Shown here: positions 8,288 to 44,490 of the stretch, one piece after another
Layout of the letters: each line of letters begins with the position of its first letter
Position numbering within the stretch: the stretch's first letter is position 1
Assembly: GCA_018499985.2 (NCBI GenBank)
Contig: JAHBAT020000007.1
Coordinates: 1-56,939 of the forward strand
Length of the DNA: 56,939 nucleotides
DNA from: Candidatus Moraniibacteriota bacterium
GTDB taxonomy: Bacteria; Patescibacteriota; Minisyncoccia; Moranbacterales; UBA1568
Direction of reading: 5' to 3'
Translations under genes and position numbers: made by a program
Notes under the pieces: generated by a model
What the model was told of the DNA's origin: nothing
Databases searched by the model: none
What the model saw: the letters and a program-made list of their open reading frames with translations, nothing else

Positions 8288-8315
8288 TTTACAAAATACA
8301 TTATTTTGCTACAAT
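8288..8315 (+). promoter_or_regulatory. Promoter of tRNA-Ala
   Basis: TTTACA, 16-nt spacer, TACAAT; the -10 ends 29 bases before the tRNA. The same TACAAT -10 and 16-nt spacing occur before tRNA-Ile. Confidence 0.7.
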
Positions 8316-8344
8316 CTATAGGTTCCTATACTTTATATAGACAT

Positions 8345-8417
8345 GGGCCCTTAGCTTAGTTGGTAGAGCGCCGCATTTGCAATGCGGAGGTCATCGGTTC
8401 GAATCCGATAGGGTCCA
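8345..8417 (+). tRNA. tRNA-Ala (TGC)
   Basis: Complete cloverleaf: acceptor GGGCCCT/AGGGTCC with the G3:U70 pair that identifies tRNA-Ala, anticodon TGC in the loop of CCGCA/TGCGG, T-arm ATCGG-TTCGAAT-CCGAT, discriminator A. CCA is not encoded. Its last 16 bases plus one (8402-8418) are repeated at 8506-8522. Confidence 0.97.
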
Positions 8418-8430
8418 CTGTAAAATTAAA

Positions 8431-8522
8431 ATGACTCCTTTAGGGGAGGCATTGTGACATTCTATCGGATGAGAAGTTTATGCTCGGTAGCGTAGCGGAC
8501 GGGTAAATCCGATAGGGTCCAC
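8431..8522 (-). mobile_element. Integration scar 1: right-end remnant of an element targeting tRNA-Ala
   Basis: Three parts match, in order, the right end of the 29-kb island at 44374-44490. First, a terminator-like hairpin (8431-8453). Second, a 7-bp stem TATCGGA (8463-8469)/TCCGATA (8508-8514) enclosing a 21-nt block (8469-8489) identical to 44429-44449. Third, a 17-nt copy of the tRNA-Ala 3' end plus its next base (8506-8522). Read on the minus strand it encodes the tail GPYRIYPSATLPSINFSS and a TAA in the hairpin loop, i.e. the end of a recombinase gene whose body is gone. Interpreted as a leftover attachment end after deletion or excision. Confidence 0.75.
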
Positions 8523-8530
8523 ACAATAAC

Positions 8531-8586
8531 TATCAGATGAAAAGTTTGCGCTTGAGCTTTGCTTAGGTAAATCTGATAGGGTCCGC
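8531..8586 (-). mobile_element. Integration scar 2: second attachment-end remnant
   Basis: A more diverged copy of the same structure. The outer stem is TATCAGA (8531-8537)/TCTGATA (8572-8578). The block TGAAAAGTTTGCGCT follows, then an inner 7-bp hairpin CTTGAGC-TTT-GCTTAGG (8551-8567), then GGTAAAT and a tRNA 3'-end-like GATAGGGTCCGC. The minus strand reads DLPKQSSSANFSSD, resembling the tails of the other two copies. Stem differences from scar 1 are compensated on both strands. Confidence 0.65.
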
Positions 8587-8677
8587 ATTTGGACTAAATC
8601 TTCAAATAAGAATCAGTGCAGGTGGAAGAGTAGGTTCTTTGTCTAAGTTTAGAAAACTTTTTAACAAATAGGTGTTT

Positions 8678-9484
8678 ATGGGAAGAAAACAAATTCAGCA
8701 TTTTGTAGAAGAACAATGGTTCACTCGCTTGGTGATAGTCATTATTATCGTCAATGCTTTAGTCCTTGGTCTTGAAACCTCAAAGTCTATCATGGCAGAG
8801 TGGGGAGGTATCTTGCATGCCATGGATGTCGCCTTTATACTCTTTTTTCTTTTTGAGTTAGGTCTAAAGCTTTTTGCTTATCGTCTACAGTTTTTTCGAG
8901 GTGGCTGGAATATTTTTGATTTTGTCATTGTTGTACTGACAGTAGTGCCTGTTTTTGGCAATCTTTCAGTCCTGCGTTCATTGCGCATACTACGAGCATT
9001 GAGATTGTTTTCTATGATTCCTCGCTTCAGGCTGGTGGTGGAGGGATTCTTTGATGCGCTTTCTGGATTGGTGGCGGTCGCTACGATGCTTTTTGTTATG
9101 GTATATATAGCAGCTGTTATGGCGACCAAACTTTTTGGAGGAGCTTTTCCAGAAATTTTTGGTACGCTGACAAAGTCACTTTTCTCTATGTTTCAGCTAG
9201 TCACTCTCGAAGGTTGGACATCAGAAATAGTACGACCAGTGATGGAAGTTTATCCGTGGGCATGGCTGTTTTTCATTCCGTTTATTGGCTTGACTACTTT
9301 TACCATCTTCAACTTATTGATTGGTATTATCGTTAATTCCATGCAGCGTATCTACGAAAAAGAAGAGCAAGAGCTCTACAATGAGCTCCATAAGAGTGAG
9401 GAAACGCAGGAGGACATCCTAGAAAAAATACATACTATTGAGAGTACACTCAATGATCTCAAGAAAGCTCTCAAAAGAGAGTAG
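8678..9484 (+). CDS. Voltage-gated cation channel (bacterial Nav-like)
   Basis: Six-helix single-domain voltage-gated channel that would assemble as a tetramer in the cytoplasmic membrane. S1-S4 occupy roughly residues 15-125. S4 carries regularly spaced arginines (RSLRILRALRLF). The pore loop is TLEGWTSE, at the position where NaChBac-type sodium channels have TLESW. The C-terminus is a charged coiled coil (EEQELYNELHK onward), as in NaChBac. ATG 8678 is chosen over GTG 8672 because it has an AGGTG-like motif just upstream. The Ser-to-Gly change in the filter makes ion selectivity uncertain (Na+ or Ca2+). Confidence 0.85.
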   Translation: MGRKQIQHFVEEQWFTRLVIVIIIVNALVLGLETSKSIMAEWGGILHAMDVAFILFFLFELGLKLFAYRLQFFRGGWNIFDFVIVVLTVVPVFGNLSVLRSLRILRALRLFSMIPRFRLVVEGFFDALSGLVAVATMLFVMVYIAAVMATKLFGGAFPEIFGTLTKSLFSMFQLVTLEGWTSEIVRPVMEVYPWAWLFFIPFIGLTTFTIFNLLIGIIVNSMQRIYEKEEQELYNELHKSEETQEDILEKIHTIESTLNDLKKALKRE

Positions 9485-9554
9485 CCTTTCATTTGCAGAA
9501 GTAAGGAGTATACTAGAGGTGTACATATACTATTTAGCTTTAATAATAAATCCT

Positions 9555-9953
9555 ATGTTTGTGAAGCTCTACCTTGTAGCACTAGTCACTTTTTTTGCGC
9601 TCGACATGACCTGGCTTGGCCTCATCGCCAAAAATTTGTATCGTGAGCAAATTGGGCATTTGCTTCGTCCTGATGTCAATTGGACAGCGGCTATTATTTT
9701 TTACTTGCTCTTTATTGGAGGTTTAGTTGTCTTTGTGATTAGTCCAGCGGTGCAGAAGCAGTCATTGATGTCAGCTTTACTTCTAGGGGCTTTCTTTGGA
9801 TTGATTACGTATGCCACCTATGATCTGACCAATCTCGCGACTACCAAGGACTGGCCTCTCTTTATCACCATAGTAGACCTTATTTGGGGTGCCGTACTTT
9901 CTGCGAGTGTCTCAGTAGTCACGTACTTTGTGTATACTCGCTTCATAGGTTAA
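9555..9953 (+). CDS. DUF2177-like membrane protein
   Basis: Small integral membrane protein of about 132 residues with four predicted helices and the pattern ALDMTWLGLIAKNLYREQIGH near the N-terminus and TYDLTNLATTKDWP in the third helix, both characteristic of DUF2177 proteins. The frame is open from 9438, but that would overlap the channel gene in another frame; ATG 9555 gives the normal family start. It is followed after 4 bases by the DUF1295-like gene, and the two are probably co-transcribed. No biochemical function is established for the family. Confidence 0.75.
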   Translation: MFVKLYLVALVTFFALDMTWLGLIAKNLYREQIGHLLRPDVNWTAAIIFYLLFIGGLVVFVISPAVQKQSLMSALLLGAFFGLITYATYDLTNLATTKDWPLFITIVDLIWGAVLSASVSVVTYFVYTRFIG

Positions 9954-9957
9954 GCAT

Positions 9958-10725
9958 ATGTCTTTTTTTCTTATCTTGGCACTGATACTCTTTGTCTTCA
10001 TGAACTTTTGGTTTGCACTATCACTTGTGCGTAAGCGCAATGACGTCGCTGATGTTGCCTGGGGACTCGGCTTTGTCATCCTTACTTGGTGCGGACTACT
10101 CATGTCCGGTATGTATGAATCTCGCCAGATACTGGTCACAGTACTCGTGACATTATGGGGTATCCGTCTTGCTTGGCATATTCATGCCCGTAATAGTAAG
10201 AAGGGTGAAGATCCTCGGTATCAGGCCTGGCGCGAAGCGTGGGGAAGATGGTTTATTGTGCGTTCGTATTTTCAGGTGTATATCCTTCAGGGAATACTTC
10301 TTTATTTAATTGTATTGCCAGTGCTTTTTGTGCAGTGGTTTGGTGGGCCCGAGCTCGGAGTCTTGGACTTAGTCGGTGTCTTGGTGTGGGGACTTGGCTT
10401 CTACTTTGAAGCTGTAGGGGATAGGCAGCTCCGAGACTTTATCAAGGACAAATCCAATCAGGGAAAAATTTTGACTACAGGATTGTGGCACTATACGAGG
10501 CACCCAAATTATTTCGGCGAAGTGACTCAGTGGTGGGGGATTTGGCTGATCGCCCTTTCGGCACCGGGAGCCTTTTTTACCTTTATTGGGCCTATGACTA
10601 TCACGTACCTTATTGTTTTTGTCTCTGGTATTCCTATGCTCGAAAAGCGCTACGAGGGTAATACTCTATTTGAAGCATACCAAAAAACCACTAGCGTGTT
10701 CTTTCCTTGGTTCAAAAAGAGATAG
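9958..10725 (+). CDS. DUF1295 / steroid 5-alpha-reductase-like membrane protein
   Basis: Multi-helix membrane protein of 255 residues. The N-terminus has DVAWGLGFV; the C-terminal half has GLWHYTRHPNYFGEVTQWWG followed by GIPMLEKRYEG, the conserved signature of the DUF1295 family related to isoprenylcysteine methyltransferases and steroid reductases. The RHPNYFGE region is the cofactor-binding part in relatives. It starts 4 bases after the DUF2177-like gene. Substrate unknown; a lipid or isoprenoid modification is the usual expectation. Confidence 0.82.
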   Translation: MSFFLILALILFVFMNFWFALSLVRKRNDVADVAWGLGFVILTWCGLLMSGMYESRQILVTVLVTLWGIRLAWHIHARNSKKGEDPRYQAWREAWGRWFIVRSYFQVYILQGILLYLIVLPVLFVQWFGGPELGVLDLVGVLVWGLGFYFEAVGDRQLRDFIKDKSNQGKILTTGLWHYTRHPNYFGEVTQWWGIWLIALSAPGAFFTFIGPMTITYLIVFVSGIPMLEKRYEGNTLFEAYQKTTSVFFPWFKKR

Positions 10726-10729
10726 AGAC

Positions 10730-10758
10730 TTGACGAAGTGACAAAAATATGCTACTCT
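10730..10758 (+). promoter_or_regulatory. Strong sigma70-type promoter
   Basis: TTGACG, 17-nt spacer, TACTCT, immediately after the DUF1295-like gene. It precedes the gene at 10805, which has an AGAAGGAG ribosome binding site. Confidence 0.8.
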
Positions 10759-10804
10759 ATATAGTCCCCATTTAACCTAGGTGGACAGAAGGAGTACATA
10801 GAGA

Positions 10805-11326
10805 ATGTCGACGACATACTTGCATGCCCTGGTGGCGGAAGTTGATGCCATCAGCGATGAAGACTTGGCGGGGCAACTGACCAGGCTTCCGAAGCCCGGT
10901 GAATCGGAAACGATTCTCGGGCGCGCTTCACCCAAGCTGCTTCAGCTCCATGCCCTTTTCGGCATGACGATCGACGCAGCAAATGCTGCAGCTGATCAGT
11001 TCAATGCTGCTCGCGGCGCAGACGAACCCAATGTTGAAGAGCTCGAAAGGCTCGACAAGGAACACTCGGTTCTCAAGAAGAAACTGAAGACCCTCGAGTT
11101 CGCTTTCTGGCAGTCGGTCGCCGCTGAATATCTGCTTCCGGAAGATGCCTCTGGGTATGCTATCCGGGCCGAAGGCGATATCGTGGCCATGCCCAAGCAG
11201 AATGACGGGATGCATTTCATCGCCATCGATATCAGCGGCCTGTTTGGCGGTGGCGGATCGGATGATCCGTTGGGTAGACTTTTTGGCGATCTGTTTGGTC
11301 GCCACCGTGGTCGCCGTCCCAACTAG
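10805..11326 (+). CDS. Hypothetical soluble protein, GC-rich gene
   Basis: Unrecognised 173-residue protein. It has a helical acidic N-terminal half with a predicted coiled coil around residues 75-100 (VEELERLDKEHSVLKKKLKT) and a glycine-rich C-terminus ending in Arg-rich GRHRGRRPN. No signal peptide or membrane segment. It has its own promoter (10730-10758), good Shine-Dalgarno and own terminator, so it is a monocistronic unit. Base composition is clearly more GC-rich than the flanking core genes, suggesting separate ancestry. Function not assignable. Confidence 0.75.
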   Translation: MSTTYLHALVAEVDAISDEDLAGQLTRLPKPGESETILGRASPKLLQLHALFGMTIDAANAAADQFNAARGADEPNVEELERLDKEHSVLKKKLKTLEFAFWQSVAAEYLLPEDASGYAIRAEGDIVAMPKQNDGMHFIAIDISGLFGGGGSDDPLGRLFGDLFGRHRGRRPN

Positions 11327-11357
11327 CTCGTTTGTTGGTGATAGCTAGCTCCTGGTT

Positions 11358-11397
11358 CCCCGGTTCGCACATGTTGCGGGCCGGGGGATTATTTTTT
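11358..11397 (+). terminator. Intrinsic terminator
   Basis: Stem CCCCGG-TT-CGCA / TGCG-GG-CCGGGG with a short loop, followed by a TTATTTTTT tract. It ends the 10805-11326 transcript. Confidence 0.85.
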
Positions 11398-11442
11398 AGG
11401 GATTAAAAATTATTGTAAGGATTTAAAAAAGAAAAAAGAAAC

Positions 11443-11471
11443 TTGACATTATTCATGAAAAAGGTTATTGT
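11443..11471 (+). promoter_or_regulatory. Promoter of the secreted-protein/CsgG-like unit
   Basis: TTGACA, 17-nt spacer, TATTGT; transcription would start near 11478, about 60 nt before the ATG at 11537. Confidence 0.8.
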
Positions 11472-11536
11472 ACAGGGCGCTTCATGAAGAAAATAGTGAA
11501 GTGTTGATGCATGTTTTTTTAACATTGGAGTCAGTG

Positions 11537-11995
11537 ATGAAAGAGAAAATAACCTCTGTATGTATGGGTCTGGCACTTGCCTGTTTGGCAGGTCCAGCCT
11601 TGGCTCAGGAGAGTCCTACGGGAACCTGGGGCAACTCTGTCACCTGGAAAAACCCCTTTGATCGTTCTGTCGATCTGAGTGTTGCCGAATCTACCAAGCG
11701 TTCACGCTCTGGTGGCTACGGTCCGGGTGACGTCAATACTACTTACAATGGTGACGTGTCTAGCTATACCACCAACAATGGTCCGGTGACTAGCAACAGC
11801 GCGACCAACGCGGTCAATCTGACCACGAGCACTTCTACTGTAACCAACGGAAATGGTACGGTGGGAGTGACATTTCAGACTGGTTCTACCAGCTGGAACG
11901 CCAGTCAGGGTGCTACTGCTCAAGGTGCTTCCAGTACCAATGGCAATGCCAGTAATGGCGCCAGTGGCACGGTAACAGGATCTTCTGGCAACTAA
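11537..11995 (+). CDS. Secreted Asn/Ser/Thr/Gly-rich protein next to CsgG-like gene
   Basis: 152 residues beginning with a clear Sec signal peptide (KEKI, hydrophobic core, ALA-QES cleavage). The mature part is low-complexity, dominated by Asn, Ser, Thr and Gly with alternating patterns, and contains NPFDRSVDLS. This composition is typical of extracellular fibre or adhesin subunits. The next gene encodes a CsgG/HfaB-like protein, so by position it resembles curli subunits or the holdfast anchor HfaA, but no direct homology can be shown here. ATG 11537 is chosen because GGAG lies 6 bases upstream and the signal peptide starts there; the frame is open further upstream. Confidence 0.72.
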   Translation: MKEKITSVCMGLALACLAGPALAQESPTGTWGNSVTWKNPFDRSVDLSVAESTKRSRSGGYGPGDVNTTYNGDVSSYTTNNGPVTSNSATNAVNLTTSTSTVTNGNGTVGVTFQTGSTSWNASQGATAQGASSTNGNASNGASGTVTGSSGN

Positions 11996-12043
11996 CGAGA
12001 ATTTTTCGTTGTTGTTGATTTAGCGTAACTAAGGGGAAAATCA

Positions 12044-12928
12044 TTGCATAGAGTAAAGTTTGGCCTCATGGCATCCGTTGTCCTGAGCGCAGGTCTTTCC
12101 ACAGGAGTTCTTGCAAAGCCGGTAGCTGTTCCGCAGACTTCGGCTCCGCGAGAGTACGTCAACCCTTACCAGCCAGCCCTCGAATGCTTGGCTTCTCAGC
12201 TCACACCTCAGCAAAAGGCCACAACTATCGGCGTAGCTTACTTTGCTGAAAGGACCGGCAAGGAAGCCTATGCACCAGAAGGAGCATCGGGTAAATTCTT
12301 ATCTCAAGGCAGTGAAGACATGCTGATTGGCGACTTAGCCACGACAGGCATGACTGCTGTCGAGGTAGGGCCTGTCTATCGTCAGCTCACCGACTGGGTT
12401 ATGCCACGGCTGCCTCGCAATGATGCGAATGGGAGACCCATTCAGTATAATGCGGCTTTGCCGGACATCATCATTGAAGGGTCATTTTCTACCCTCGATT
12501 TCGGCAACTCCGACGTCAAAGAACTCTATATCTTTGGTATCGGAGGAGGTGCTCGCTCGTACAGTATCCGGTACACACTGGATGCTCGGGCGACCAGCAT
12601 GGTAGGGGGGTCGCTTCCGGGCGGCGTCGTGTTGACACACTTGGCTTTGGTCAAGGATGTCGTAGGGCGCGAAAAGAAAGCGGGAGTGGCGAGCTTCTTT
12701 GGAGCTCCAAGCTCTTCGACCTATGTCGAGCTGAATATCAATACCCAAAAGCGCGAGCTTTTGCAGTATTCTCAGCGCTACATGGTCAGCCGGGCAGCCT
12801 ATGGTATCGTCGCTGGTCTTTGGAAAATCAACACTTGTCAGGCTCAGCTCGACTGGGGTGATAGTGTGATCTCTGGGGTGCCCGTGACAGCCTTATCTCA
12901 GGCTGATTCCAGGCCGGCCGGGCAGTAA
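12044..12928 (+). CDS. CsgG/HfaB-like secretion-channel protein
   Basis: 294 residues with a signal peptide (ending near VLAKP). The CsgG-like core shows TIGVAYFAERTGKEA, FLSQGSEDMLIGDL, a PDIIIEGSFSTLD strand, IFGIGGGARSYSI and a later helix (residues ~200-265). CsgG forms the outer-membrane secretion pore for curli, and HfaB has the related role for the Caulobacter holdfast. A TTG start at 12044 is supported by AAGGGG 7 bases upstream. The usual lipobox cysteine after the signal peptide is not seen. An outer-membrane pore protein is surprising in a lineage thought to lack an outer membrane. The gene is GC-rich compared with the core. Confidence 0.75.
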   Translation: MHRVKFGLMASVVLSAGLSTGVLAKPVAVPQTSAPREYVNPYQPALECLASQLTPQQKATTIGVAYFAERTGKEAYAPEGASGKFLSQGSEDMLIGDLATTGMTAVEVGPVYRQLTDWVMPRLPRNDANGRPIQYNAALPDIIIEGSFSTLDFGNSDVKELYIFGIGGGARSYSIRYTLDARATSMVGGSLPGGVVLTHLALVKDVVGREKKAGVASFFGAPSSSTYVELNINTQKRELLQYSQRYMVSRAAYGIVAGLWKINTCQAQLDWGDSVISGVPVTALSQADSRPAGQ

Positions 12929-12941
12929 TACACTCTGACTC

Positions 12942-12970
12942 TTGACAAGAAAACGCACATGCGTTAGAGT
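12942..12970 (+). promoter_or_regulatory. Promoter upstream of second secreted protein
   Basis: TTGACA, 17-nt spacer, TAGAGT. The transcript would have a leader of about 180 nt before the ATG at 13158. Confidence 0.8.
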
Positions 12971-12988
12971 GAAATCCGTTCCTAGTGA

Positions 12989-13072
12989 ATGCAAAAAAGA
13001 AAACCCACTGCAACTTTGGTTGCTGTGATCGTTCTCTCTCTTACATTTGCTAAGAATGTTCCCACTCCTTAA
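12989..13072 (+). CDS. Possible 27-residue hydrophobic leader peptide
   Basis: Short frame MQKRKPTATLVAVIVLSLTF... with a basic N-terminus and one hydrophobic segment, starting about 12 nt after the expected transcription start. The distance to the promoter and the membrane-like composition suggest translation, but there is no convincing ribosome binding site. It could be a small membrane peptide or a regulatory leader for the gene at 13158. Confidence 0.35.
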   Translation: MQKRKPTATLVAVIVLSLTFAKNVPTP

Positions 13073-13157
13073 CTGAGAAGCTAAGGAGGTTTTCGCACCG
13101 AATGGGGACAACAATGAGTAATGCTCGTTGAGGTGTATTTGAAAGAAGGAAGTACTC

Positions 13158-13598
13158 ATGAAGTTCAAGGTTTCGTCGCTCGCCATTGCCGTCGCTGCCC
13201 TCGTTTCGCTCGGGGCGCCGGCATCCGCTGCGGTGGTCGATATCTCGGGGGTCTCCAATGCCACGAACAACGTCCGCGTCGGTGATACCGAGCAGGTCGC
13301 TGTGGCACTCGATGGTTCGCTGGGCCCGGTCGCCTTCGACTCGTCGGTCGATCTGTCGGCCACGAACCTGGTGAATACCGCCACGGCCAACATCGGCGTC
13401 GACCAGGCCAACGGCGTGCTCGAATTCATCAACTACAGCGCCATCGGCAACGTCGCCAACAACCAGTCCTATGGCCAGGTTGGCCAGCTGGCGGTGACTG
13501 GCAGCCTCACCGGCGCCGTGACCAACAACTCGCACGTCACCGGTTCGGCGCTCAACAGCGTCAATCTCGGCGCCACGACCATCACGGTCAAGCAGTAA
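13158..13598 (+). CDS. Secreted low-complexity protein, GC-rich gene
   Basis: 146 residues with a textbook signal peptide (MKFKVSSLAIAVAALVSLG, cleavage after ASA). The mature protein has repeated Asn/Val/Gly/Ala/Ser strand-like segments (SNATNNVRVGD, NTATANIGVDQANG, NVANNQSYGQVGQLAVTGS) and ends with strand-forming residues, consistent with a beta-rich surface or fibre protein. AAGGA lies 7 bases before the ATG. It has the highest GC content of this part of the window and its own promoter and terminator. Being next to the CsgG-like gene, it may be a secreted client or an anchor subunit; this is inference. Confidence 0.72.
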   Translation: MKFKVSSLAIAVAALVSLGAPASAAVVDISGVSNATNNVRVGDTEQVAVALDGSLGPVAFDSSVDLSATNLVNTATANIGVDQANGVLEFINYSAIGNVANNQSYGQVGQLAVTGSLTGAVTNNSHVTGSALNSVNLGATTITVKQ

Positions 13599-13670
13599 CC
13601 CTGCGCCCCCTTCGTCCTCACCAGGGACAAGGTTTGATTGCTCTCAGCATCGTCTGATGTGATCATGAAG

Positions 13671-13712
13671 TGCCCGCTCTTGTGTAACAACAAGGGCGGG
13701 CATTTTTCTTTT
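13671..13712 (+). terminator. Intrinsic terminator
   Basis: Stem TGCCCGCTCTTGT / ACAAGGGCGGGCA around a short loop, then TTTTTCTTTTT. Confidence 0.88.
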
Positions 13713-13768
13713 TCTAGGTATAATTCGCTATACTATTTGTATATCTTTTTCATATCCCATAATTACGC

Positions 13769-14239
13769 ATGCAATACTGGCTTTTCAAAACAGAACCAAG
13801 TACCTACTCTATCGATGATCTCAAGCGAGAAAAAACGACCGAGTGGTACGGTATCCGGAACTATCAAGTACGGAATTTTTTGCGTGATGCTATCAAAATA
13901 GGGGACATAGTCCTTATCTATCATTCCAATGCTGAGGAAATTGGAGTAGTAGGGACGGCTGTGGTAGCGAGTGATGCTTATCCTGATACAGAGCAATTTA
14001 AAGAGGGGAGTAAATACTACGACCCAAAGAGTAAAAAAGAAAATCCAAGCTGGCTTTCACGAGACATCTCTTTTGTTTCTCAGTTTCCAGAGATAGTCTT
14101 GCTTGCAGACCTCAAAAAAGAAAAAACCTTGAAAAATATGCTCATTCTTCGTCCAGGTAATCGGCTTTCTATCACACCACTCAAAGAGAAAGAATTTAAG
14201 CATATTTTGACCCTTGCTCAAAAAAACAAAGCGTGTTAG
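13769..14239 (+). CDS. EVE domain protein
   Basis: 156-residue single-domain protein starting MQYWLFKTEPSTYSIDDL and continuing with TEWYGIRNYQVRNFLRD, IGDIVLIYHSN and VVGTAVVASDAYPD. These are diagnostic for EVE domains (PUA-like fold), which bind modified bases in nucleic acids and are often linked to modification-dependent defence or RNA modification. It covers the normal length of a stand-alone EVE protein. Its 3' end contains a promoter for the next small gene. Base usage is AT-rich like the core genes. Confidence 0.9.
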   Translation: MQYWLFKTEPSTYSIDDLKREKTTEWYGIRNYQVRNFLRDAIKIGDIVLIYHSNAEEIGVVGTAVVASDAYPDTEQFKEGSKYYDPKSKKENPSWLSRDISFVSQFPEIVLLADLKKEKTLKNMLILRPGNRLSITPLKEKEFKHILTLAQKNKAC

Positions 14240-14242
14240 TAT
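14214..14242 (+). promoter_or_regulatory. Promoter inside the 3' end of the EVE gene
   Basis: TTGCTC, 17-nt spacer, TAGTAT, overlapping the EVE stop codon. It would start transcription about 40 nt before the GTG at 14287. Confidence 0.55.
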
Positions 14243-14286
14243 ATGAGCTCCGGAAATCCGGAAAAATCAAAAAAGAGGGGACATTT

Positions 14287-14451
14287 GTGTCTACTGCTAG
14301 TGAAAAGGAAACCAAAGACATGACACCATCTGCCACCAGTACCAATCCTGCTCCTGTCATCGCACCGTATCTTTTGGCGGCCTGTCAGTTTACCGACAGG
14401 GCTGTCAGGGAGCGTCAGCGTAGGACCTCCAGGGAGAGGGCGAAGAATTAG
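14287..14451 (+). CDS. Small hypothetical protein
   Basis: 54 residues from a GTG start preceded by GAGGGG at suitable distance. The first half is Thr/Ser/Pro-rich and the second half basic (RAVRERQRRTSRERAKN). No recognised domain. The frame extends upstream to 14233, but the promoter and ribosome binding site favour 14287. It is followed directly by another small gene. Confidence 0.5.
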   Translation: MSTASEKETKDMTPSATSTNPAPVIAPYLLAACQFTDRAVRERQRRTSRERAKN

Positions 14452-14468
14452 AGCGGGGTAGTCTCATG

Positions 14469-14612
14469 ATGAGACATGAAGGTGAACCGAAAGAAGATTT
14501 GGAAGAGTCTTCCTCGGTAGACGATAATCGGTATGCGAGTGGGGGAGATGCTCCTCCGCTGCCTCCAGATTTCGTGGCTCGATACAAAGAGCAAATTCCT
14601 TTGGGGCACTAA
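14469..14612 (+). CDS. Small acidic hypothetical protein
   Basis: 47 residues (MRHEGEPKEDLEESSSVDDN... ending EQIPLGH), acidic at the N-terminus and Pro-rich in the middle (DAPPLPPDF). It sits 17 bases after the previous small gene and before a terminator, so the pair is probably a two-gene transcript. A second ATG directly precedes the first. No recognised function. Confidence 0.5.
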   Translation: MRHEGEPKEDLEESSSVDDNRYASGGDAPPLPPDFVARYKEQIPLGH

Positions 14613-14635
14613 ACTTTTTTGAAGAGGGGAAGAGT

Positions 14636-14673
14636 GGGGGTGTGTCGGTATTGCTGATGCACCCCCCTTGATT
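14636..14673 (+). terminator. Probable terminator
   Basis: GGGGGTG (14636-14642) pairs with CACCCCC (14660-14666), followed by a T-rich stretch. It ends the transcript of the two small genes. Confidence 0.55.
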
Positions 14674-14695
14674 TATTCTCTGACCGTGCTACAAT
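14668..14695 (+). promoter_or_regulatory. Promoter of the tRNA cluster
   Basis: TTGATT, 16-nt spacer, TACAAT, ending 16 bases before tRNA-Ile; same -10 and spacing as the tRNA-Ala promoter. Confidence 0.7.
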
Positions 14696-14711
14696 ACCAA
14701 AGTTCATTTTT

Positions 14712-14785
14712 GGGTGATTAGCTCAGGTGGTTAGAGCGCAACACTGATAATGTTGAGGTCCCAGGTTCGAGTCCTGGATCACCCA
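14712..14785 (+). tRNA. tRNA-Ile (GAT)
   Basis: Acceptor GGGTGAT/ATCACCC, anticodon GAT in CAACA/TGTTG, T-arm CCAGG-TTCGAGT-CCTGG, discriminator A; no encoded CCA. Confidence 0.97.
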
Positions 14786-14806
14786 CAGTCCAGTCAGAAA
14801 TGTGAA

Positions 14807-14884
14807 TATAGCGGGGTAGAGCAGCTCAGCCGGAGGCTGACAAGCTGGTAGTTTACCCGCCTATGGCGGGCTCGTCTGGCTTAA
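14807..14884 (+). pseudogene. Decayed 5' half of tRNA-fMet with two hairpin insertions
   Basis: The 19 bases 14807-14825 are identical to 15133-15151, the start of the intact tRNA-fMet. CTGGTAG and CTCGTCTGGCT of the same tRNA follow in order. They are separated by two extra segments, each a small hairpin (CAGCC-GGA-GGCTG and CCCGCC-TAT-GGCGGG). The similarity stops in the anticodon loop. This is a 5' half copy left upstream of the GIY-YIG gene. Confidence 0.75.
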
Positions 14885-14889
14885 CAATT

Positions 14890-15174
14890 ATGGAACAAAA
14901 GTATTTCATTTATGTTCTTGTATTTGAAGGAAATGCTATTTATATTGGCATGACACATTCATTACAAAGAAGAATACGAGCACATAAACGAGGTTCTACA
15001 AGAAGCACAAAGGGAAAAGTGATTCAAAGAGTCTTGAAATTAGAAGAGTGTTCTGATAGTATACAAGCCCGAGTAAGAGAAAAATTTTGGAAGTCGGGGC
15101 AAGGAAGAAGATATATCAGACAGTTATTAAATTATAGCGGGGTAGAGCAGCCTGGTAGCTCGTCTGGCTCATAA
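14890..15174 (+). CDS. GIY-YIG endonuclease running into tRNA-fMet
   Basis: 94-residue single-domain GIY-YIG nuclease. KYFIYVLVFEGNAIYIGMT supplies the GIY and YIG strands, followed by SLQRRIRAHKRG, the Glu-containing REKFWKSGQGRRYI and a short end. ATG 14890 is chosen; an upstream ATG at 14863 lies in the half-tRNA copy. The last 12 or so residues (SGVEQPGSSSGS) and the TAA stop are encoded by the sense strand of tRNA-fMet, the stop lying in the anticodon loop. Small GIY-YIG genes are common in Patescibacteria; here the arrangement suggests a homing-type insertion at the tRNA. Confidence 0.82.
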   Translation: MEQKYFIYVLVFEGNAIYIGMTHSLQRRIRAHKRGSTRSTKGKVIQRVLKLEECSDSIQARVREKFWKSGQGRRYIRQLLNYSGVEQPGSSSGS

Positions 15175-15209
15175 CCAGAAGGTCGGTGGTTCGAATCCAC
15201 CCCCCGCAA
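15136..15209 (+). tRNA. Initiator tRNA-fMet (CAT)
   Basis: D-arm GAGCAG-CCTGGTAG-CTC and anticodon CAT match bacterial initiator tRNAs. Position 1 (A) and 72 (A) do not pair, the hallmark of initiators; pairs 2-7 are GCGGGG/CCCCGC. T-arm GGTGG-TTCGAAT-CCACC, discriminator A, no CCA. The first ~38 nt overlap the end of the GIY-YIG frame. Confidence 0.92.
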
Positions 15210-15278
15210 CAATCTTTTTTATATCAGTACGTGACAGATGCTGACTTGGCCTGTCGCAACCGAAATAGAAAGAGGAGT

Positions 15279-15352
15279 GGCAGGGTAGCTCAGATGGTTA
15301 GAGCGCAGCACTCATAACGCTGAGGTCGGCAGTTCGATCCTGCCCCCTGCTA
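15279..15352 (+). tRNA. tRNA-Met (CAT)
   Basis: Acceptor GGCAGGG/CCCTGCT, anticodon CAT, T-arm GGCAG-TTCGATC-CTGCC, discriminator A, no CCA. The last anticodon-stem pair is an A/C mismatch. A lysidine-modified tRNA-Ile (CAT) cannot be excluded. Confidence 0.9.
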
Positions 15353-15402
15353 CAAGGTAGTTTGAAGTAGTGTGGTCCGGTTTACCTGGGCCAAAAATAT
15401 AT

Positions 15403-15479
15403 GGACCGGTAGCTCAGCTGGTTAGAGCGCTCGCCTGTCACGCGAGAGGTCGCGGGTTCGAATCCCGTCCGGTCCGCCA
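15403..15479 (+). tRNA. tRNA-Asp (GTC) with encoded CCA
   Basis: Acceptor GGACCGG/CCGGTCC, anticodon GTC in CTCGC/GCGAG, T-arm CGGG-TTCGAAT-CCCG, discriminator G and encoded CCA at 15477-15479. It is the only tRNA in the window with encoded CCA. The 3' end is the left attachment core of the island, and the CCA appears to come from the element. Confidence 0.97.
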
Positions 15480-17000
15480 TTCGGTACAAGCAGTCCCAAA
15501 AGGGGCTGTTTTTGTTTTAGTAGATACCCCTAAGGGTGGTTCGAAGGTGCCCATTTTGGCCGTTACGCTTTCTACATCTTCTTGGAGCCATGAAAAAGGC
15601 TCATTGAGGTTAAAGTAAGCGATATTTCGGTCTTGAATAGCAAAGTTCGAAGATATGAGACCGGCTACCTCTCGACGGAGGTGCGGATCAGCATTTTGGA
15701 AAATATCGTGAGCACTTTTTACAAAATGAATAATCTGATCGAGGTCAGCCAGTACACTCTCTGATTTCTTGGCTCTGCCCGTGAGACGTTCTTCGAGCGT
15801 GCTTTCTTCTTTGGTTATCTCGCTCAGTTTCTTTTCATAGATACTCTTCGGGATAGAATTGTCGATGTATTTCTCAATCAAAGAATCTTTGCGGATAGCT
15901 ACTTCACTAAGAAGCTTCTTCACTTCTTCTTTCGATGTGCTCTCGTGTTCTTCTAGGTGGAGATACTTTTCTTTGGCAGCGTCTACGATGAGTTCAAGTA
16001 CCTCATCATCAAACTGAATCTTCTTGAGCTCCTCTTCTATCTTCTCTGTCAGTATCTCCTCTCGGAGGTAGGGCTGTGAGCATGCTTTAGTGCCACGTGA
16101 CTTCGTACAGCGGTAGTACGTGTGACCCTTGCTCGTCTCTGCTGTTATCTTTAGCCCACACTCTCCGCAAAGAGCGAGGCCACGAAAGAGAAAGAAATGA
16201 TCATCGGCTCGGGTGAGCTGTTGGCTGGCAGGGGCGAGGCTTTTTCTAGCTTCCTCGAAAAGCGACTTTGATACAAGGGGAGTGTGCACTCCTTTGTGGA
16301 CTTCACCATTCCATTCAAAGAGTCCGCAGTAGAGCGGGTTAGAAAGTATGCGTTGTAGTCTCGCATGATTAACCTTCTTCCCTCGTACAGAGCGAAAGCC
16401 ATCCTCGTAGAGCTTGTCAGATATCTTTCGTATCGACCACCGCTTGGTGGCGTAGAGTTGGAAAGCCTCGCGGATGTAGGGGGCAATCTTTGGATCAATC
16501 TTGAGAAACTTCGTTTTGGGGTCAATGGTATATCCCAAGACATGATTGCCTGGATATTCTCCGCGTCTCACTTTAGCAGCGAGGCCTCGCTTTACATTGT
16601 TACTCAGGTCTCGTACGTACTGATTAGCAATACTAAACTCAATGCTCGCTATCACTACATTATCTTCTGGATTGTAGTCTCTATCAAACGTCTTGATGCG
16701 TTTGATGGTGTTGTTCTGAAGAAGCCACTTGATAGCTCCCTCGTCTACTGGGTTACGAGCGAGGCGGTCAATCTTCCAGCAGAGTATTCCTTCTGCTTTG
16801 CCTTGTTCGATATATTTCATCATCTCGGCAAAGACAGGGCGGCCTGGGGCTTTGGCAGATTTGGCCTCTTGAAAAACTTTCACCACGTCGAGCTTCTCTC
16901 GCTTGGCTATTTCTTCCATCTCTATAATCTGTGATTGGATAGACAAAGACTGTCTGTCTTCACTCTCACTCGATTTTCTGGCGTAGATAATATACCTCAT
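15438..17000 (-). CDS. Large serine recombinase (probable integrase) whose end is antisense tRNA-Asp
   Basis: 520 residues in the integrated form. The N-terminal resolvase domain begins MRYIIYARKSSESEDRQSLS with the catalytic Ser in RKSSE, then DRLARN. A recombinase domain follows (about residues 165-260), then a zinc ribbon (CGECGLKI...YYRCTKSRGTKAC) and a long coiled coil (about 340-440). The final residues WRTGRDSNPRPLA and the TGA stop are encoded by the antisense strand of tRNA-Asp. In the predicted circle the frame would instead continue LPGIQAEWIPSINFSS to a TGA at 44394-44396, giving about 539 residues. Its position at attL points to a role in integration and excision. Confidence 0.9.
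   Translation of the reverse strand: MRYIIYARKSSESEDRQSLSIQSQIIEMEEIAKREKLDVVKVFQEAKSAKAPGRPVFAEMMKYIEQGKAEGILCWKIDRLARNPVDEGAIKWLLQNNTIKRIKTFDRDYNPEDNVVIASIEFSIANQYVRDLSNNVKRGLAAKVRRGEYPGNHVLGYTIDPKTKFLKIDPKIAPYIREAFQLYATKRWSIRKISDKLYEDGFRSVRGKKVNHARLQRILSNPLYCGLFEWNGEVHKGVHTPLVSKSLFEEARKSLAPASQQLTRADDHFFLFRGLALCGECGLKITAETSKGHTYYRCTKSRGTKACSQPYLREEILTEKIEEELKKIQFDDEVLELIVDAAKEKYLHLEEHESTSKEEVKKLLSEVAIRKDSLIEKYIDNSIPKSIYEKKLSEITKEESTLEERLTGRAKKSESVLADLDQIIHFVKSAHDIFQNADPHLRREVAGLISSNFAIQDRNIAYFNLNEPFSWLQEDVESVTAKMGTFEPPLGVSTKTKTAPFGTACTEWRTGRDSNPRPLA
15461..15477. repeat. Left attachment core (attL)
   Basis: 17-nt sequence aatcccgtccggtccgc covering the T-stem 3' strand, acceptor 3' strand and discriminator of tRNA-Asp. 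It is repeated exactly, in the same orientation, at 44474-44490. Confidence 0.8.
15491..15516 (+). terminator. Terminator after tRNA-Asp, supplied by the element
   Basis: CAGTCCC-AAAA-GGGGCTG then TTTTTGTTTT, starting 12 bases after the tRNA. It lies inside the recombinase coding region on the opposite strand, so the element brings its own stop signal for tRNA transcription. Confidence 0.75.
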
Positions 17001-17151
17001 ACTCCTAAGAGAAAATAGCGATCAGTACGAAAATGAGGAGTATGAACAAAAGATAGCCGATGATGGCTTCGAGTGGCCACTCCCACAGGGGAGGCATACC
17101 TTTGTATTTTGGAGAACGCATACGAGCAATAATAAAAGGACGACCTCGCTT

Positions 17152-17950
17152 GCACACAACCTCTTCTCAGAAGATGTAGCGAAAGTCGCCCTTTCACGAG
17201 AACAATTGCCAAAAAACAATTGCTCTTCTTCTGAGAAATTAAGTTGTGTGCTCTAGTAGTATAGCGAATTTCTCGTATCTTTTCCATTGCCTTTTTTGTC
17301 TTTATTTTCCTGTCACCCCTCCGCTCATGTCGCTTCCACTCCCTTTGGGCTCTGCCCAAACCTGGCTTCAAGAGCCAGGCGAGCTTCGGGGTTCTATCGG
17401 TCAGGGCTCGCGAGTGCCTCTTCCTTTTTTTAGTCTCTACTCTCGCCCTGTCTTTCTTGTCCAGGCTCCCTTCACGGCTTTCTTTGGTACCAGAGCCAAG
17501 TCCCATACCACCTCGAGGAGGCACCCCTTTCCTCGGGTGGTATGAGACACCCCCCTTTGTCCAAGCATCGCATAAGTGCCACCGTGCTTAGGCGACATCC
17601 GCTGTGCTCCTTTCGCCTAATCAGCACTTATGCAACGCATGTCCTAAAGGGGGATGGGCTCTGGTGCTCCTTACGCCGTTTTGCGGTCGCCAGTCTTTCT
17701 TCCTAGTCTCCTATCAGTTGTCCGGGCTCTATATCATCTCTTCCTCGTTCGTAGTCTGTGCTTCGCCCGGGCAGCCATTCTCATTTCCCCTTATGGCACT
17801 CTGTGTGGCTCGCAGAGCCTCGCCACACCTCGTCGCCATATCTTTTCCTCAAGAGAGCTTCTATCGCTTCGCACGCTTCGATTTCTGATCTCTTTCGTTC
17901 TTGTCGACTTCGTCGTACGAAACGGATTTTCTCTTTCTCGTTTTTAATTT
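17152..17950 (-). ncRNA. Candidate large structured non-coding RNA
   Basis: About 800 bases without a convincing protein. It is pyrimidine-rich on the plus strand (purine-rich, GNRA/GAAA-like loops on minus) and more GC-rich than its surroundings. Strong inverted repeats: 17152-17160/17243-17251 with 17164-17174/17227-17237; 17344-17350/17354-17360; 17361-17367/17373-17379; 17504-17518/17531-17544; three nested stems 17551-17558/17646-17653, 17570-17579/17624-17633, 17588-17595/17613-17620; 17803-17809/17822-17828. AAGGAGCAC occurs twice on the minus strand. Size, density of stems and position beside an integrase and tRNAs recall GOLLD/ROOL-type phage RNAs, but family membership cannot be tested here. 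Confidence 0.5.
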
Positions 17951-34805: not shown

Positions 34806-35013
34806 ATAATTGTTGCTAAGGATTATTTAATTATGTATCAAATCTAGATTTTTAAGGTACACAAAGGGCCCCACAATCCGGCGGTAACCTTTCGATCACC
34901 CAGTAGCTCTTTCGAGTACTGACCTTAGCAACAAGTACCGGCTGTGAGGCCGTTTCTGTTGCTAAGGATTTATTGCGCCATGCTCACATTTCTATGAGTT
35001 TAGGCTGGATTGT
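34806..35013 (-). promoter_or_regulatory. Switch-like structured 5' leader (riboswitch candidate)
   Basis: Leader between the promoter and the ATG at 34805. On the minus strand CCTTAGCAAC (34967-34958), GTTGCTAAGG (34932-34923) and CCTTAGCAAC again (34821-34812) occur in that order. The central copy can pair perfectly with either side, and the last copy ends 6 nt before the start codon. Further helices: CAGTACTC-GAAA-GAGCTACTG, GGTGA/TTACC, GGC-CTCACA-GCC, CTCA/TGAG, and long-range CAATCC/GGATTG that closes the domain. This is the architecture of an RNA switch controlling translation; no known class is recognised. Confidence 0.65.
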
Positions 35014-35073: not shown

Positions 35074-36393
35074 TCATCTTTTTAGGGTTATTTGCTTATT
35101 GGCTAGATATATTCTGCTTTTCAAACATCCAAGAATTTCTCTTTTTTCTTCATTTGAGCCTTCTTTGAGTACATACTTCGCATATCCTCGAATATCAACA
35201 CCTTTTGCATCCACCTTATCTTTTGTCCCTAGAAAGAATTTCTCCATTTTAGAGAATCTTTCTATATCCTCTGAAATTTTTGATTTTAGTTCTATTTCAT
35301 TTAGATTAATCTTATCTAAAAGTTCTTCGAATTGTCTGAGAATCTCCTTTTCTTCGGTATAACCACACTTACACTGTTTATCTCTAGCTTTAGTACAACC
35401 ATAATAAATATATCTTTGAACGGAGCCATTTTTAAGTTTCTTAAATTTCTCATCAGCACATATACCTGACTCACAGAGTCCGCAGGTCATCATTTTGGTA
35501 AAAGCGAATTCTTTACCTTCAACTCGGAGTATCTGGCTTTTTACTTGTCTTTGAACCTGATCAAAAAGTTCTTTGGTAATGATTGGTTCATGCTTACCTG
35601 TATACCAATTACCAGAGTTCTTTGGATATTCAAATACACCGTAATAGAAAGTGCTTTCTAGGATTCTATAGATATTTCCTAAGCTTAGATGCTTTTTGCC
35701 ATTCGCAGTTCTAAAATTAAGTTCAAAGGTAAGCCAGTTATGTAGCTTTCTGCCACTCCATTGTTCATAGGCGACTTTTTCAAACATCTTTTTAATGACA
35801 GGGGCTCTTTCTGGATCAATAAGAGTTTCACATTTTCGATCCATCCTTTTTTCCTTCATGTAACCAGTGGGGGCTGGGTTAGGCCAGAGACCCATTTCTA
35901 CTCTAGTCCGAAGTCCTCGTTTAACATTAATACTCTTATTGTCATTTTCAAGTTTGGCCTGACTACAGAGAATCATAAGAAGAAACTTCTCATTAGGGGA
36001 GTTTTTGAATATCTGTCCGTAAGTACGTATCTCCATTAAGTGTTGCTGATCCATCAAATCTACGACACTTCCTAAATCTCCTGCATTACGAGAGAGGCGG
36101 TCAGGAGCCCAGGTGAGAATGCCGTTAAATCTGCCCCTTCTGATATCTTCTAGTATTTCTTTGTAGACTGGACGCTGACCTGACTCCTTAGCACTATGAG
36201 ACTCCCTTCTGATCTCAACTATTTCAAGGTCATCTCGTTCAGCTTGCTGAAGCATCTCTTTGATTTGAGAATCAATAGAAAGGACTTGTCGCTCTTCAGA
36301 TTCGGTTGATTTTCGGGCGTAGAGGACGTACCTGATCTTTTGGATAGGTTGGACTATCTCGTCACCAATTCGGGCTGTTGTGTGCGTTTCCAT
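35074..36393 (-). CDS. Second large serine recombinase
   Basis: 439 residues from ATG 36393 (a TTG at 36417 is possible). Resolvase domain RYVLYARKSTESEERQVLSI with catalytic Ser in RKSTE and DRLSRNAGDLG; recombinase domain (GLWPNPAPTGYMKEKRM, GRKLHNWLTFEL, STFYYGVFEY); zinc ribbon CGLCESGICADE...YYGCTKARDKQCKCG; shorter C-terminal coiled coil than the recombinase at the left end. Its stop is a normal one, not in a tRNA. It stands between the switch-leader gene and the packaging genes, and may be the integrase of a nested element or act as an accessory recombinase. Confidence 0.92.
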   Translation of the reverse strand: METHTTARIGDEIVQPIQKIRYVLYARKSTESEERQVLSIDSQIKEMLQQAERDDLEIVEIRRESHSAKESGQRPVYKEILEDIRRGRFNGILTWAPDRLSRNAGDLGSVVDLMDQQHLMEIRTYGQIFKNSPNEKFLLMILCSQAKLENDNKSINVKRGLRTRVEMGLWPNPAPTGYMKEKRMDRKCETLIDPERAPVIKKMFEKVAYEQWSGRKLHNWLTFELNFRTANGKKHLSLGNIYRILESTFYYGVFEYPKNSGNWYTGKHEPIITKELFDQVQRQVKSQILRVEGKEFAFTKMMTCGLCESGICADEKFKKLKNGSVQRYIYYGCTKARDKQCKCGYTEEKEILRQFEELLDKINLNEIELKSKISEDIERFSKMEKFFLGTKDKVDAKGVDIRGYAKYVLKEGSNEEKREILGCLKSRIYLANKQITLKR

Positions 36394-36479
36394 GTATCTA
36401 TTGATGACGCACTTCAATAGATTTGCTAAGTCTATGCAAAAACAGTGATTTATCGCATAATAGCACTTTGAAAAAAAGG

Positions 36480-44242: not shown

Positions 44243-44373
44243 TATGAGCCTGTCTTGTGTAACTTTTATCACTTTTTTAGTGTGCACGAGACGCGTCGAA
44301 ACGGGTATTGAAATTACACTAAAATCTCCTTACAGGGCTTGATTTCTTTTGGTTCTAACACGAGACGGCCCGC

Positions 44374-44414
44374 AAAGTAAAGAACGACATCCATCAGGGT
44401 GTCGTTTTTACTTT
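44374..44414. terminator. Bidirectional terminator at the right end of the island
   Basis: AAAGTAAA (44374-44381) and ACGACATCC (44384-44392) pair with GGGTGTCGT (44397-44405) and TTTACTTT around the loop ATCA. In the excised circle the recombinase frame would end with TGA exactly in this loop. The same arrangement, stop codon in a hairpin loop, is seen in scar 1. Confidence 0.8.
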
Positions 44415-44422
44415 TTGTTTCA

Positions 44423-44490
44423 GACGGGATGAGAAGTTTATGCTCGGTATCCATTCGGCCTGGATACCGGGTAAATCCCGTCCGGTCCGC
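44423..44490. repeat. Right attachment region (attR) with T-arm-mimic stem
   Basis: Outer stem GACGGGA (44423-44429)/TCCCGTC (44476-44482), inner 11-bp hairpin (44443-44453/44461-44471), then the 17-nt core 44474-44490 identical to the tRNA-Asp 3' end at 15461-15477. The outer stem copies the tRNA-Asp T-stem; the two scars after tRNA-Ala carry the same layout with the Ala sequence. Confidence 0.8.

Follow-up and report, generated by a model that had tools for sequence, protein, structure and literature searches.

The window, the whole stretch of 56,939 nt analysed here, is contig 12 of the 891,858-bp genome of a Candidatus Moraniibacteriota bacterium. Behind its tRNA-Ala(TGC) gene lie two tandem copies of a short structure, each consisting of a left arm, GAGAAGTTTATGCTC or a variant of it, a variable hairpin, GGGTAA or GGTAA, and a copy of the tRNA-Ala 3' end. 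The features of the locus, with unit boundaries reckoned from T-loop position 59, are the following:

8345-8418, + strand: tRNA-Ala(TGC) gene (tRNA call), the target; unit 1 begins inside it at T-loop position 59 (8403) and takes in its 3' part
8403-8506, + strand: unit 1, 104 bp, with tRNA 3' end, spacer hairpin, left arm and core (covariance-model match at 8461-8525, 78.7 bits)
8430-8453, + strand: spacer hairpin of unit 1, AATGACTCC..GGAGGCATT, without a T-run
8462-8470, + strand: left arm of unit 1, CTATCGGAT, complementary to 8507-8515
8471-8506, + strand: core of unit 1, with GAGAAGTTTATG, the variable hairpin and GGGTAA
8507-8570, + strand: unit 2, 64 bp, with displaced 3'-end copy, short spacer, left arm and core (covariance-model match at 8529-8589, 51.9 bits)
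8530-8538, + strand: left arm of unit 2, CTATCAGAT
8571-8586, + strand: outermost displaced tRNA-Ala 3'-end copy, ATCTGATAGGGTCCGC

The tRNA-Ala 3'-end copy between the two units occupies positions 8507-8522. Both copies of the structure, as claimed in the initial annotation, were confirmed by the sequence and by the covariance model. Compared to copy 1, copy 2 carries a compensating change in both arms, from CGG/CCG to CAG/CTG. The hairpin of copy 1 had been regarded as the retained terminator hairpin of the right-end structure. This part did not hold, since the hairpin lacks a T-run, is not called as a terminator and differs in sequence from the Asp-side terminator at 44383-44410. For the 40-nt core of copy 1, no second match was found in the window at up to three mismatches (0 expected by chance). 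A third copy of the structure, located at 44423-44490 beyond an island at tRNA-Asp, is too divergent for this pattern and was picked up by the covariance model and direct reading.

An empty counterpart of the tRNA-Ala site was searched for in two ways: a search with the ion-channel protein gave just one distant match, without a tRNA, and a tRNA-Ala search of 28 genomes yielded no syntenic empty site, the tRNA-Ala genes found all being without such units. In several relatives tRNA-Ala is located directly upstream of tRNA-Ile, while 6.3 kb of genes lie in between in the window (8345-15479). A different repeat of the tRNA-Ala 3' half was observed behind tRNA-Ala in L215, L218, L219, L220 and L221 (genomes G018, G021, G015, G024 and G027, respectively). 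Repeats of this type retain the 5' strand of the T-stem and are tandem in L215; several of these loci feature a GC hairpin ahead of the T-loop (GGAGGTCGCCGG-hairpin-TTCGAATCCGG..GGTCCACCA).

An exact pattern search detected the structure in six records from other genomes, assigned to Ca. Moranbacteria, Falkowbacteria, an uncultured bacterium and Psychroflexus planctonicus; P. planctonicus has three tandem units behind tRNA-Gly. A covariance model (R1), built from an alignment of 14 copies (A1), found six copies in the window's genome. Those outside the window are located behind tRNA-Gln(CTG) (L003), behind a tRNA gene interrupted by a group I intron (L002; RF00028 at L002:973-1170, 3' tRNA half read by eye) and at a contig end with no visible tRNA (L006). 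Across the phylum, 33 of 379 genomes yielded R1 matches, in 68 places (E ≤ 0.01). The units are body-less, single or tandem, 57-178 bp in length and found behind tRNA genes for many different amino acids. Matches were also obtained in 9 of 198 genomes from the class of Psychroflexus; in ten newly read loci of this class, the unit follows a tRNA (Leu, His, Lys or Asp) in seven and none in three.

In total, 69 places were read, comprising the six of the window's own genome, nine in the pattern records and 54 of 62 other R1 places, with eight weak ones left out. Of the 68 parsed places, 54 are at most 320 nt downstream of a tRNA gene on the same strand; the unparsed place (L073) is 76 nt behind tRNA-Tyr. 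Among the 14 unlinked places, a tRNA sequence is present by eye in four, uncalled or cut by the contig end (L002, L030, L058, L063), and inserted DNA separates tRNA and unit in two (the Asp unit of the window and the second unit of L090). For another six, the fetched piece contains no tRNA (L006, L048, the first units of L076 and L080, two in L089), and one place is degenerate (L071). L075 was rejected as a false positive within what reads like a dnaA gene.

Dispersal of the repeats away from tRNA genes, which would have spoken against the initial annotation, was not observed. The copies are tied to tRNA genes, and an ordinary dispersed genome repeat was rejected because whole-genome matches keep to such genes. 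The repeats behind tRNA-Ala are members of a widespread class of gene-free units in tRNA genes of very different bacteria. Two pattern scans of IMG/VR for a phage attP returned 83 loci, nearly all of which look like chance matches in coding DNA. The sole clear unit among them, judged by sequence and stem length, was L191 (9-bp stem), which is located outside a provirus. A third IMG/VR pattern scan gave no loci, and a short-query blastn search (36 nt, a weak test) gave no match in phages and plasmids. A literature search, with subscription journals mostly outside its reach, found no description of this unit class; one article describes a different palindrome downstream of tRNA genes in Methanopyrus kandleri (PMC5217627).

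Units begin with the tRNA 3' end from position 59. Next come a spacer, in many cases containing a hairpin or terminator of its own, and an arm complementary in sequence to the 3' strand of the T-stem; GAGAAG(TTTAT), a variable hairpin and TAA complete the unit, beyond which the old tRNA 3' end is found. The distance from tRNA to GAGAAG is mostly 35-100 nt. From position 59, the direct repeat in most of 48 loci reaches the mature tRNA end, give or take a few nt, which makes it 16 nt long without and 18 nt long with an encoded CCA. In 16 of the 48 loci it is at least 3 nt longer, in several of them owing to tandem units. In L003, L032, L034 and L082 and, by eye, also in L030 and L191, the structure has different terminators on its two sides, indicating that the unit brings its own trailer there. 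When units are folded as circles, a helix forms between the tRNA 3' end and its inverted copy, and the two caps are the spacer hairpin and GAGAAGTTTAT-hairpin-TAA. The z-score of such circles is below -2 in 32 of 45 units (mean -3.1); bare hairpins gave weak single-fold z-scores.

Longer units with GGATGAGAAC and a GC-rich insert were seen in L002 (~1270-1430) and L030 (after 2300), and are closer to the E. coli form described below than to the form of the window. The sRNA family sX4 gave weak matches, below the gathering score, over tRNA and unit in L053:1576-1724 and L088:2546-2658. L003 features a partial 5'-half copy of tRNA-Gln (TTGGGGAGTACC...AAGGCAATAGGTTCT) upstream of the tRNA-Gln gene.

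The left arm matches its own tRNA at 6.61 of 8 positions, compared to 4.59 for other isoacceptors and 5.19 for the best of 2000 label shuffles, a score that is partly circular because the model finding the places rewards pairing with the adjacent copy. Mean core identity is 0.745 within a genus between units of different amino acids (72 pairs) and 0.593 between genera for the same amino acid (141 pairs). Hence, the arms follow the tRNA and the hairpin core follows the lineage, in agreement with the earlier claim that the copies carry the T-stem and 3' end of Ala instead of those of Asp. In alignment A1, 12 of 18 pairs changed on both sides, which was reached in 0 of 500 shuffles; in A2, an alignment fitted to the model, this applies to 16 of 18 pairs. 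The inner helix contains 31 G.U versus 1 A.C pairs, the inner arm pairs 12 versus 6 and the outer arm pairs 16 versus 35. The G.U excess of the inner helix makes the tRNA-sense strand the likelier folding strand. The outer arm, without such an excess, does not point this way and was counted against the insertion model presented below.

Filled and empty sites were found in two cases. In genus g239, with sites matched by synteny of flanking genes, tRNA-Lys(ttt) is followed by a unit in G361 and by none in G279 and G336, the flanking terminator being conserved, and tRNA-Lys(ctt) is followed by a unit in G336 and by none in G279 and G361. In E. coli K-12, one 175-bp unit is located between two tRNA-Tyr genes (tyrT-tyrV) and is absent in strain VTB97448v. 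Its junction is exactly between GGTTCG and AATCC, at the T-loop, its 3' flank is foreign to the locus (CCATAATTC compared to the native CCATCTCAAG), and the aligned stretch outside the unit shows one base difference. Filled and empty alleles with a precise junction, as in a site-specifically inserted unit, are thus present in E. coli and at tRNA-Lys of g239. The empty alleles could be original or could result from deletion between the ~19-bp direct repeats, the latter being counted against insertion. At the sensitivity of megablast, 4680 of 5426 E. coli genomes contain RtT units, in 1-9 places each (median 2), and the other 746 have no match. Strain JJ1886 has a single tRNA-Tyr, followed by other genes.

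The E. coli units are annotated as RtT RNA (RF00391). At the K-12 tyrT locus they read GGGGAAGGATGAGAAG ... GAGTAATCCTTCCCC and GGGGAAGGGTGAGAAC ... AATAATCCTTCCCC, and measure 175 and 178 bp between one position 59 and the next. Like the window units, they are arranged in tandem behind a tRNA gene, here tRNA-Tyr, start at T-loop position 59 and contain an arm (GGGGAAGGAT), followed by GAGAAG ... TA and ATCCTTCCCC; in contrast, their inner core is different and longer. The RF00391 covariance model found no match in the window, nor in 8300-8700 at E ≤ 10, and among seven unit loci tried it matched the E. coli locus alone and none of the six others. The window units are therefore not RtT members, although they share the RtT architecture (start at the tRNA 3' end, T-stem-complementary arm, GAGAAG, position behind a tRNA gene). 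A blastn search of E. coli with a window unit yielded no match because arms and core differ. The history of the tyrT/RtT repeats reportedly includes work by Egan and Landy in 1978 and by Bosl and Kersten.

Taken together, we consider it an even chance that the repeats behind tRNA-Ala represent two successive insertions of a small gene-free unit into the tRNA T-loop, presumably by a trans-acting enzyme and with a folded strand. A unit of 57-178 bp would insert between positions 58 and 59, in the T-loop of the tRNA gene, and supply a new 3' end, from 59 to the mature end, so that the tRNA is restored. The old 3' end, often together with the old terminator, would be pushed outward. The unit may move as a small circle or single strand, of which the tRNA-sense strand probably folds, and a putative recombinase or transposase acting in trans would join TAA to position 59; arm pairing may assist in forming or aligning this joint. 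Ordinary islands or proviruses using the same tRNA would later insert proximally and displace the units. In the best model, the units are non-autonomous and inserted by a putative trans-acting enzyme. Counted in its favour were the filled and empty pairs of E. coli and tRNA-Lys, the differing terminators, the position of the repeat end at or near the mature tRNA end, the tRNA linkage, the match of arms to their own tRNA, the lineage-specific cores, the covariation and the G.U excess of the inner helix. The successive insertions already proposed for tRNA-Ala, each restoring the tRNA 3' end, gain support.

It is unlikely that the units are functional RNA trailers, i.e. transcribed structures, comparable to RtT RNA in E. 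coli, that are maintained for a role in termination, regulation or the 3' processing of tRNAs, with tandems formed by unequal crossing over and arms kept by selection. The RtT annotation of the E. coli units and the good circle folds are in line with such a role. In addition, a strict terminator is present between tRNA and structure in only 11 of 48 loci, and not in unit 1 of the window, so many units may be transcribed. The unit behind the orthologous tRNA-Tyr of G336 and G279 was inherited with both hairpins kept, and a T-stem change recurs in the outer copy, with one of two arm positions matching it. This joint change of the 3'-end copies and, partly, the arm fits a maintained RNA or palindrome correction equally well and was counted against insertion. 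However, units are missing behind the same tRNA in close relatives, just 33 of the 379 genomes have them, 746 E. coli genomes lack an RtT match at megablast sensitivity, and the flank of the E. coli unit is foreign to its locus.

Somewhat less probable still is template switching during replication, in which the tRNA 3' segment would be copied, followed by a snap-back inverted copy and a second switch, resulting in the order segment, inverted segment, segment; palindrome correction would keep the arms matched. In L033, the arm continues into an inverted T-loop copy (GATTCGAA) and the unit has the appearance of a trailer copy that was inverted and lost an internal part, both consistent with this process. 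The same holds for non-Watson-Crick positions of the T-stem, where 20 of 26 cases (18 of 22 with tandem copies counted once) have an arm complementary to the 3' strand and 6 of 26 an arm that copies the 5' strand. The Lys(ttt) repeat extends 7 locus-specific nt past the tRNA end, which also suits template switching and, being unexpected for a foreign circle, was counted against insertion. Template switching leaves unexplained the core common to phyla (GAGAAGTTTAT..TAA) as well as the foreign 3' flanks and terminators. RNA selection and palindrome-correcting template switching could also act together with insertion.

The initial annotation had interpreted the repeats as scars of full-size islands at tRNA-Ala that lost their bodies, which we regard as improbable. 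Tandem 3'-end copies behind a tRNA are the expected look of such scars, and the Asp copy is located at the far edge of a 29-kb island, the features of which are:

15403-15479, + strand: tRNA-Asp (tRNA call), target of the third unit and of the later island
15438-17000, - strand: serine recombinase ORF overlapping tRNA-Asp, left end of the island
44337-44374, + strand: probable true right end of the Asp island, GCTTGATTTCT-4-GTTCTA..GACG.CCCGCA (motif common to the G017 island end)
44383-44474, + strand: Asp unit, with terminator (44383-44410), left arm (44423-44430) and core (direct reading and covariance model)
44475-44490, + strand: displaced tRNA-Asp 3'-end copy behind the Asp unit

The Asp structure includes the direct repeat of the tRNA 3' end that a right-end scar should have, but it is most likely not the island's own att end. 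The motif at 44337-44374 aligns to the island end of G017 with a score of 20 (best of 2000 shuffles, 12), and the G017 motif is likewise located just upstream of a unit. From the sequence, this separate motif just upstream of the unit is most likely the Asp island's own right end. The "right-end structure" at tRNA-Asp is a unit that the serine-recombinase island has displaced. The alternative of a decayed tRNA-Asp copy at 44351 as the island end was rejected (15/23 identity, second-ranked in the island, not significant).

The same G017 locus has a second, identical unit region behind a different island-end motif, TTCGAAC.TTGTC, which resembles island ends in L048, L076 and L080. A Bacteroidota provirus in L191 ends just before a unit, i.e. 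between tRNA and unit, and islands of another type are also found in this position. The order at Asp, G017 and L191 indicates insertion of islands and proviruses on the tRNA-proximal side of units, which are thereby moved outward. Island ends are hence motifs distinct from and upstream of the unit, and dozens of similarly sized units without a body are located behind many tRNA genes in many genomes; both findings speak against right ends of islands that lost their bodies.

Within the Asp island, a LOOT RNA (RF03000, 70.5 bits) was found at window positions 34883-35006 (- strand) and a second serine recombinase beside a terminase-like gene at 35074-36417 (- strand). In L090, about 1.4 kb (16519-17933) with one ORF (335 aa), which by eye we take to be RhuM/Fic-like, are located in cassette-like manner between two identical units behind tRNA-Gln.

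In right ends of the IS200/IS605 family the order is guide, hairpin, cleavage site. Non-autonomous IS200/IS605-like or REP-like elements moved by a Y1 (HUH) transposase, with the arm as a long target guide, are very improbable: the right-end order of the unit resembles that of the family and the inner helix shows single-strand asymmetry, but direct repeats of 16-18 nt are unexpected and no Y1 gene (PF01797) was found in the window's own genome (G000), G017, G127, G336 or G361, each with 4-8 units. Y1 transposases are present in 14 of 25 unit genomes versus 10 of 25 genomes without units, and a Y1 transposase was rejected as the mobiliser for want of a clear association; this distribution ties no enzyme to the units, which was also counted against insertion. 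REP-like TGAG..TCGAA cores were observed in G112, G132, G140, G146, G201, G304, G362, G378 and G419. Eight of these nine genomes have a Y1 transposase; among the unit genomes with other cores it is 4 of 14, not counting G072 and G092, which are mixed.

With integrative elements and satellites at tRNA 3' ends, the inserted units proposed here share the restored tRNA 3' end, the 3'-end direct repeats and tandem accretion; they differ in having neither integrase nor cargo, and in arms that follow the tRNA and a core that follows the host lineage. Integron attC sites are folded single-strand recombination sites, one per unit, in cassette-like tandem order. By eye, the units resemble this arrangement, whereas they are anchored at a tRNA gene and R/L boxes were not identified. 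REP/BIME and MITEs derived from IS200/IS605 are short gene-free hairpin units. The units are similar in this respect, some even having the REP-like core hairpin, but differ in their tRNA-specific position, the 3'-end duplication and the frequent absence of a Y1 transposase.

Tentatively, and with less confidence than for the insertions at tRNA-Ala, we suggest that the units may form a minimal mobile class, spread over at least three phyla and restricted to tRNA T-loops. Their arms, the inverted target 3' end, would be re-templated for each tRNA, the moving strand would be dumbbell-like with two terminal loops, and the E. coli tyrT repeats would represent one branch. The old puzzle of these repeats is thereby tied to a general phenomenon in candidate-phylum bacteria and Bacteroidota. 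If the units move, they would be among the smallest inserting elements, with arms that show a target-matching rule. The reading of DNA ends at tRNA genes changes as well, since the outermost repeat may be a unit and not the edge of an island.
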